64,000 bases of DNA from Flavobacteriaceae bacterium. GTDB taxonomy: Bacteria > Bacteroidota > Bacteroidia > Flavobacteriales > Flavobacteriaceae. The translations under genes were made by a program, and so were the position numbers. The notes under the pieces were generated by a model, which was not told the DNA's origin, did not search any database, and was given only the letters and a program-made list of their open reading frames with translations. Below, one piece after another: positions 59,963 to 62,650 of this stretch. How positions within the stretch are numbered: the first letter of the stretch is position 1; each line of letters opens with the position of its first letter. The DNA is taken from the NCBI GenBank assembly GCA_002746415.1, contig NVXD01000002.1:62001-126000 (forward strand), written 5' to 3'.

Positions 59963-60296
59963 TATACCCAGAAAATAATCAAATAAGCATGCTTATGCTA
60001 TTTTTCAACAGGAGTTTCTCATTAATTGAGTTACACACTGGTAGCAGAGTGTTCCATGGCAAACACCATCATTCCCTTGCCAAAAAATGCTTCCATGCAT
60101 GACTTTTGGACTTAAGATGAAATTTCGCATGCCTCTCACTAACCTCTGATTCACAATGATTTAAACCCCTATTTCTTCTTAAAATATCAAAAACACATAT
60201 TCACTACCACTTATTACTTTTGGTGCCTTTCTGATTTTCATATGTTGTAAAATTGTCCCTTAATATTTAATTATAACATTTAAAATCATTTAGTTC
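59963..60296. other. 334-bp gap without a convincing gene
   Basis: Holds a 14-bp palindrome at 59983-59996, a stretch with visibly higher G+C (about 60010-60160) than other gaps in this window, and a TACTTTTG box at 60215-60222 that could drive the lipoprotein gene downstream. On the minus strand of the G+C-richer stretch there is a short open frame without known similarity. I see no RNA gene or complete ORF. Confidence 0.5.
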
Positions 60297-60941
60297 ATGA
60301 AAAAGTATTTCTATTTATTAGTAGTTTGTTGCGTATTTATTGCGTCGTGCCATAAAGACGATGATGATGCGTCAAAAAGGGGGGGCAAAGCAAATAACAT
60401 CTTTTGTTTTTGATACAAGTAAAAATAAAAGTCTTGGCACGGTAAAAGTCACTTTCGATAAGGCAAAAAAAACCATAAGCGTAGAAGTTCCTTTTGGTAC
60501 AAATGTGACCAAGTTAAATCCTATTATCAAAATTTCTAAAGGCGCTACAATAAACCCTAAAGGAGCACAAGATTTTACCAAACCAGTAACATACACAGTT
60601 ACTGCAGCCAACAAAGCAATATCAAAATATGTGGTAACGGTACTCGTGGATAAAAACATTGGAAACAAGATTCTAAAATTTTCCTTTGAGAAATCTAAAA
60701 ATACTGCATTGAACAATGATATTGTAGGCAAAATAGATGGAAAAAAAATACAATATCTCTAAATGTTCCCTCTGGTACGGTTGTAACCAAATTAGAGCCC
60801 ACTATTGAAATTCCTGAAGGATCCACAATAAGTCCCTCAGGAGTGCAAAATTTTAACACAATGATAACTTATACAGTTACCGCAAAAGACAAAACAAGCT
60901 CTACTAAATATAATGTAACGGTACTGGTAAATAAAAGCTAA
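60297..60941 (+). pseudogene. Lipoprotein with two DUF5018-like repeats, broken by two compensating frameshifts
   Basis: Reads as a 214-codon lipoprotein only if two homopolymers are corrected. Frame one (60297 on) gives the lipobox signal 'MKKYFYLLVVCCVFIASCHK'. At a run of seven G (60379-60385) one base too many moves the rest out of frame. The middle frame encodes the first repeat, 'ITSFVFDTSKNKSLGTVKVT' to 'YTVTAANKAISKYVVTVLVD'. At eight A (60741-60748) one base too few is corrected and the second repeat resumes in the original frame to a TAA at 60939. Both repeats look like cadherin-type DUF5018 beta-sandwiches. This could be a real pseudogene, a phase-variable surface protein or two sequencing errors. 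Confidence 0.75.
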
Positions 60942-61003: not shown

Positions 61004-61040
61004 AGCATCCCTTTAACACATTTAAAGGGGTGCTTTTTTT
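61004..61040 (+). terminator. Intrinsic terminator after the lipoprotein gene
   Basis: 13-bp stem starting AGCATCCCTTTAA (one T-G pair) and a seven-T run at 61034-61040. Confidence 0.85.
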
Positions 61041-61191: not shown

Positions 61192-61410
61192 TTAAGCCAA
61201 TTTAGCTTTGTTAGCCTTGGTTCTAAAAGACAAGGCTTTCTTTACACTAGAGTTTTTAAACTTGTACAAACGTGCTACTGATGTTTCGTTAACTTCAGAA
61301 ACTTCAACAGTCACTTCTACCGCATCAACCTTAGTGTCATTCTTAGCATCTTGCGCTTGTGCAGCTAGTCCGATAAAAAGAACAAAAATTAAAGTGATGA
61401 TGGTTTTCAT
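61192..61410 (-). CDS. Small exported peptide, copy A
   Basis: 72 residues: signal peptide 'MKTIITLIFVLFIGLAAQAQ' then a 52-residue mature part with an acidic first half (V-E-V-T-V-E-V-S-E-V-N-E) and a basic end 'RLYKFKNSSVKKALSFRTKA' finishing N-K-A-K-L-A. No known domain; a family of short secreted flavobacterial peptides ending in this kind of motif exists to my knowledge. It differs from copy B (62194-62412) at three residues only. It lies in a direct repeat with a conserved upstream region. Confidence 0.8.
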   Translation of the reverse strand: MKTIITLIFVLFIGLAAQAQDAKNDTKVDAVEVTVEVSEVNETSVARLYKFKNSSVKKALSFRTKANKAKLA

Positions 61411-61426
61411 GATATTGGGTTTGTTA

Positions 61427-61449
61427 CACTATTAGAACGCCCAATAGTG
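61427..61449 (-). promoter_or_regulatory. Leader hairpin upstream of peptide copy A
   Basis: Inverted repeat CACTATT / AATAGTG with a nine-base loop, 17 bp before the start codon, repeated at 62429-62451 in the other copy. Probably a 5'-UTR stem, protecting or regulatory. Confidence 0.45.
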
Positions 61450-61560
61450 TATCTAGACCCGTTGTGAATCGCTGAAACCCCTTATTATTCGGTATCTGTC
61501 CGCTTATCTGTTAAAGTGCAAAAAATGCTCGGTGAACACACCAAACCCCTAAATCATGTG

Positions 61561-61586
61561 ACCGATGTTATGTGTCATTTACCGAT
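61561..61586 (-). promoter_or_regulatory. Phased ATCGGT repeats upstream of peptide copy A (operator-like)
   Basis: On the transcribed strand ATCGGT occurs twice with a 20-bp period (plus ACCGAT at 61561 and 61581). Two inverted TCGGT (plus) copies lie 40 bp apart at 61489 and 61529. All four are kept in the second repeat copy. The 337-bp gap 61411-61747 otherwise holds only this region and the leader of the DUF4345 gene. Confidence 0.45.
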
Positions 61587-61747
61587 AGGTATAACAACTG
61601 AAATCTATAAAGTCATGCGATTATCTAGAAACAAATTGGAGATATGAGCTATATTTATATAGAATTAAGGTGTTATGGATACTTAAATGGAATGTTAGCC
61701 AAAAATATTTCTAATAAAGACTGTCTTAAAATCAAAATATAAGGAAA

Positions 61748-62193: not shown

Positions 62194-62412
62194 TTAAGCC
62201 AATTTAGCTTTGTTAGCCTTAGTTCTAAAAGACAAAGCTTTCTTTACACTAGAATTTTTAAACTTGTACAAACGTGCTACTGAAGTTTCGTTAGCTTCAG
62301 AAACTTCAACAATCACTTCTACCGCATCAACCTTAGTATCAATCTTAGCATCTTGCGCTTGTGCAGCTAGTCCGATAAAAAGAACAAAAATTAAAGTGAT
62401 GATGGTTTTCAT
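62194..62412 (-). CDS. Small exported peptide, copy B
   Basis: 72 residues, the same layout as copy A: signal peptide ending A-Q-A-Q, acidic middle, basic C-terminal 'RLYKFKNSSVKKALSFRTKA'. Differences from copy A are Asn to Ile after D-A-K, Thr to Ile in V-E-V-x-V-E-V and Val to Ala in S-E-x-N-E. All fall in the mature acidic part; the signal and C-terminal motif are identical. A recent duplication is inferred. Confidence 0.8.
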   Translation of the reverse strand: MKTIITLIFVLFIGLAAQAQDAKIDTKVDAVEVIVEVSEANETSVARLYKFKNSSVKKALSFRTKANKAKLA

Positions 62413-62562
62413 GATATTGGGTTTGTTACACTATTAGAACGCCCAATAGTGTATTTAGGCCCGTTGTGAATCGCTGAAACCCCTTATTACTCGGTATCTG
62501 CCCAGTTATCTGTTAAAGTGCAAAAAATGCTCGGTGAACATACCATACCCCTAAATCATGTG

Positions 62563-62588
62563 ACCGATGTTCTGGGTTGTTTACCGAT
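62563..62588 (-). promoter_or_regulatory. Phased ATCGGT repeats upstream of peptide copy B (operator-like)
   Basis: Plus-strand ACCGAT at 62563 and 62583 (20-bp period) with TCGGT at 62491 and 62531. The spacer between the ATCGGT pair differs from copy A at several bases while the hexamers are unchanged. Confidence 0.45.
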
Positions 62589-62650
62589 AGATGTAACAAT
62601 AGAAATTCATCATATTATCTAAAAACACCAACTTTCATCAATATATATCT

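Follow-up and report, generated by a model that had tools for sequence, protein, structure and literature searches.

The locus lies on contig C35, part of a 3.82-Mb draft genome (36 contigs, completeness 96.75) whose gene content and homologues point to the Flavobacteriaceae. At 60297-60941 on the forward strand of the window (the whole 64-kb stretch of DNA that was analysed), three-frame translation revealed one gene of 645 bp with two breaks in its reading frame, the first in a run of seven G residues (G7) and the second in a run of eight A residues (A8) (Table 1). From the ATG at 60297, frame 0 encodes 38 residues, MKKYFYLLVVCCVFIASCHKDDDDASKRGGKANNIFCF, followed by a TGA stop codon at 60411-60413; the initial annotation had placed this stop after about 39 residues. 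The frame +1 segment, AKQITSFVF...VGKIDGKK, begins with GCA at 60385, the last G of G7, and runs to A8, after which frame 0 resumes (TISLNVPSGT...VLVNKS) and is closed by a TAA codon. When both shifts are allowed for, a clean protein of 214 residues is obtained, which ends in the starting frame as had been annotated.

Table 1. Features of the broken lipoprotein gene and its surroundings (window positions unless a contig is given).
Feature	Position	Strand	Evidence
Promoter candidate TACTTTTG, a weak match to TAnnTTTG	60215..60222	+	Pattern scan
Start codon, lipoprotein signal peptide, Cys18 (60348-60350), export motif C-H-K-D-D-D-D and linker; frame 0	60297..60378	+	Translation; C-X-K-(D/E)2 motif of PMC5080379; N-terminus in common with L162
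G7 run, first break, frame 0 to frame +1	60379..60385	+	Translation, codon-usage model, tblastn
Ig-like (DUF5018-type) domain 1, frame +1	60385..60657	+	Pfam PF16410 below cut-off, AlphaFold2, Foldseek, phmmer
Opening strands of domain 2, also frame +1	60658..60740	+	Translation, homologue alignment, tblastn
A8 run, second break, frame +1 to frame 0	60741..60748	+	Translation, codon-usage model, tblastn
Remainder of Ig-like domain 2, frame 0, up to TAA (60939-60941)	60749..60941	+	Translation, Pfam, homologue alignment
Intrinsic terminator, 13-pair stem then T run, apparently intact	61004..61040	+	Folding z-score -4.18
Cassette coding a 72-aa secreted protein	61192-61640 and 62194-62627	-	
Further copies of the cassette	C35:128669-129065 and 129449-129795		

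A codon-usage model trained on the 207 other genes of contig C35 gave the three segments scores of -0.08, 0.33 and 0.20 bits per codon in their predicted frames, and all other frames scored -1.08 or less. In tblastn of homologues the frame changed at exactly G7 and A8. The opposite frameshifts previously proposed at these two runs are thus seen in translation, codon usage and homology alike, and apart from them the frame mosaic contains neither an in-frame stop nor a third lesion. It had also been proposed that a correction of one base in each run restores the gene. This holds for A8, where the most plausible reading is a single missing base, as homologues preserve the D-x-x-x-K-T-I-S spacing; at G7, one base too many and two too few fit the frame equally. 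G7 is the sole run of seven or more G residues within the window, and A8, read in frame +1, forms A AAA AAA, a -1 slippery heptamer. Shortly 5' of G7, ATGATGATG in frame +1 is a possible start of a leaderless 133-residue product (60361-60762, forward strand), which would hold domain 1 without a signal peptide and is probably incidental.

The promoter candidate upstream of the gene matches the Bacteroidota -7 motif TAnnTTTG; in the pattern scan it was not accompanied by a TTG at the customary -33 spacing. RNA structure around G7 and A8 was no better than that of shuffled sequences (z = -0.46 downstream of A8), and an Rfam scan of the locus gave no match. Beyond the terminator lie cassettes coding for a 72-aa small secreted protein (MKTIITLIFVLFIGLAAQAQDAK...), each with a long, conserved block upstream. 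Four copies were found, 77-92% identical to the first, and the matching region of a congener (L046:7262-8497) holds at least three related copies.

The N-terminus can be read directly as a signal peptide and lipobox cysteine, Cys18, followed by an acidic stretch (MKKYFYLLVVCCVFIASC-HKDDDD). The optimal surface-export signal C-X-K-(D/E)2 was established in Capnocytophaga (PMC5080379). With a signal peptide, a lipobox cysteine and this motif adjoining it, the product is predicted to be a surface-exposed Bacteroidota lipoprotein, and the lipoprotein assignment of the initial annotation is borne out. The two beta-sandwich repeats described there proved to be Ig-like domains of the DUF5018 type. 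Against Pfam PF16410, the domain 1 piece scored 28.7 bits (E=7.8e-7) and the domain 2 piece 20.5 bits, both under the gathering score of 38.2; both repeats are related to DUF5018 by sequence, yet they are not filed as DUF5018. A phmmer comparison matched domain 1 to an Ig-like domain of the levan-binding surface protein Bt1761 (PDB 8a9y), with E=1.9e-11. An AlphaFold2 model built for domain 1 (pLDDT 89.9, pTM 0.78) was matched by Foldseek to 8a9y, 8aa2 and 3hbz, which are Bt1761 and related Bacteroides secreted proteins, with a TMq of about 0.77. In both sequence and predicted fold, domain 1 is therefore similar to the Ig-like stalk domains of surface glycan-binding proteins (SGBPs). Bt1761 is SGBP-lev of the Bacteroides thetaiotaomicron levan utilisome (PDB 8a9y, 8aa0, 8aa2; PMC7618045), where two Ig-like domains form the lipidated N-terminal part beneath the ligand-binding domain. 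In contrast, the gene studied here is frame-broken and ends after domain 2. Read across its breaks, it is a predicted lipoprotein whose pair of Ig-like, DUF5018-type domains has its homologue in the SGBP stalk.

The closest homologues share 40-48% identity with this protein, and their frames are open over about 430-725 codons. Those that were read, L008 from the congener (genome G001, labelled as the same genus) and L162 and L163 from genome G182, carry similar Ig-like repeats at 42-47% identity, and L162 and L163 also have an N-terminus of the same style (MKKYFY...SC-x-KDDD). However, all three are open frames of about 605-615 residues in which two or three Ig-like repeats are followed by a C-terminal LRR domain, whereas the window gene has no LRR, and a search downstream of it found no LRR remnant. 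A stand-alone two-domain lipoprotein of 210 aa, L047 from Larkinella arboricola, has an intact frame and agrees in overall architecture and length with the window gene once both breaks are bridged. In genome G182, several large Ig-stalk genes (loci L157 and L161-L169) together hold 14 or more matching repeats, an expanded surface family of which L162 and L163, the members read, end in LRRs. At the corresponding site of the congener, where the aligned flank is 74% identical at the DNA level, there is an amidohydrolase and the window gene is absent; since the domain pair also occurs in a single copy in its own genome, the gene is accessory. A DNA search for an orthologue in 60 relatives returned only short, spurious matches, so neither dN/dS nor an ancestral run length could be derived.

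Single-base changes in homopolymer length explain both breaks and leave a clean protein across them, as would be expected if an intact gene had suffered two sequencing or assembly errors. The completeness of the genome is slightly low, and according to the GeneTack authors, singleton frameshifts with homology support are mostly errors (PMC3711429). To gauge the error rate we used one 278-kb contig, C35, and the matching stretch of the congener as a proxy. No frameshift was found in the 170 genes (162 kb) common to both, even though these hold 39 A/T runs with a length of 8 bases or more and 7 G/C runs with a length of 6 or more. The stops that did turn up in this comparison were not frameshifts, most lying 5' of the true start codons or within shadow ORFs, and an apparent split of an ABC permease near C35:126000 was an artefact of the locus boundary and the window edge. 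Other coding runs of G7 to G9 are also in frame. The error explanation would require two independent errors within one 645-bp gene, which could occur but is unlikely because frames elsewhere are clean. We regard it as highly improbable that the gene is instead recoded, with -1 slippage of the ribosome or RNA polymerase at A8 rescuing domain 2 and some further way past G7. A8 is placed in the right frame for -1 slippage, transcriptional insertions climb steeply with the length of A/T runs (PMC5574713), and a comparable rescue was proposed in Blochmannia (PMC3017870), where single-base indels likewise occur in runs of otherwise open genes. The Blochmannia runs, however, are poly-A/T and open to transcriptional rescue, whereas the first break here is poly-G, and in E. 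coli and Buchnera transcriptional insertions were absent from G/C runs (PMC5574713), so that G7 remains a block. The RNA downstream of A8 has no unusual structure, and neither run is a conserved feature of the relatives read. Rescue at the RNA level thus appears conceivable at A8, not at G7.

The initial annotation had suggested that slippage in such runs switches the protein on and off. The gene would then be a phase-variable (contingency) locus for a surface lipoprotein, sequenced here while OFF, with slipped-strand mispairing in G7, and possibly A8, toggling expression. The surface-exposed class of the protein, the position of poly-G directly after the lipobox and the opposite shifts in an otherwise intact frame are all consistent with this, as is a second lipoprotein in the genome, L074, with an in-frame G7 in its linker. 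Contingency tracts are expected to be long, polymorphic and repeated among surface genes. The two tracts here are short, and a functional gene would need the two in register at once. The genome contains 27 distinct runs of seven or more G, as compared to about 40 expected from base composition by a rough estimate; 21 of the 26 others lie inside open ORFs of at least 185 aa, and no gene was found broken by any of these runs. Such runs in the congener are likewise nearly always in open frames. Among the relatives identified, none carries an out-of-frame tract at this domain, and literature searches for a poly-G-switched lipoprotein from Flavobacteriia returned none. Poly-G after the lipobox was also considered as a genus-wide design; it occurs at three sites in the genome (the window, L074 and L102) and possibly at one in the congener (L114), all in open frames except the one in the window, and the idea was set aside. 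With neither an excess of tracts nor a related out-of-frame tract, the suggested switch is unsupported and we consider it doubtful. Its more elaborate form, in which G7 would decide whether the lipoprotein is made and the slippery A8 whether it presents one Ig-like domain or two, is very unlikely.

The locus is probably a recently inactivated gene, that is, a pseudogene of an accessory, surface-anchored stalk lipoprotein, since homology extends across disabling frame breaks. In its intact form, the protein would have been lipidated at Cys18 and brought to the cell surface by the C-H-K-D-D signal, bearing two Ig-like stalk domains of the type that holds ligand-binding domains at a distance from the outer membrane. 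Slippage during replication may then have altered the length of one homopolymer and abolished the full-length product, either by an early end or by loss of domain 2, and the second run may have slipped later, under relaxed selection. Which run slipped first cannot be told from the sequence, and by our own estimate there is about a one-in-two chance that two single-base slips are of opposite sign. The present sequence would yield only the short remnant. The frame mosaic is precise and otherwise free of lesions, and the missing LRR, present in L008, L162 and L163, is consistent with a remnant, although, given the existence of L047, the lack of an LRR need not point to decay. Against inactivation, the terminator looks intact, and because there is no in-frame stop or third lesion, decay would have to be young. 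However, one new stop is expected for about every 25 substitutions in this gene sequence, and the lack of stops therefore limits the age only weakly.

As a young pseudogene, the locus would have little importance beyond annotation, where it should appear as one broken lipoprotein gene rather than as separate hypothetical ORFs. A genuine switch would provide an example from Flavobacteriia of poly-G control over a surface stalk protein, and with two tracts at work, a single gene could give rise to OFF, short and long surface forms.
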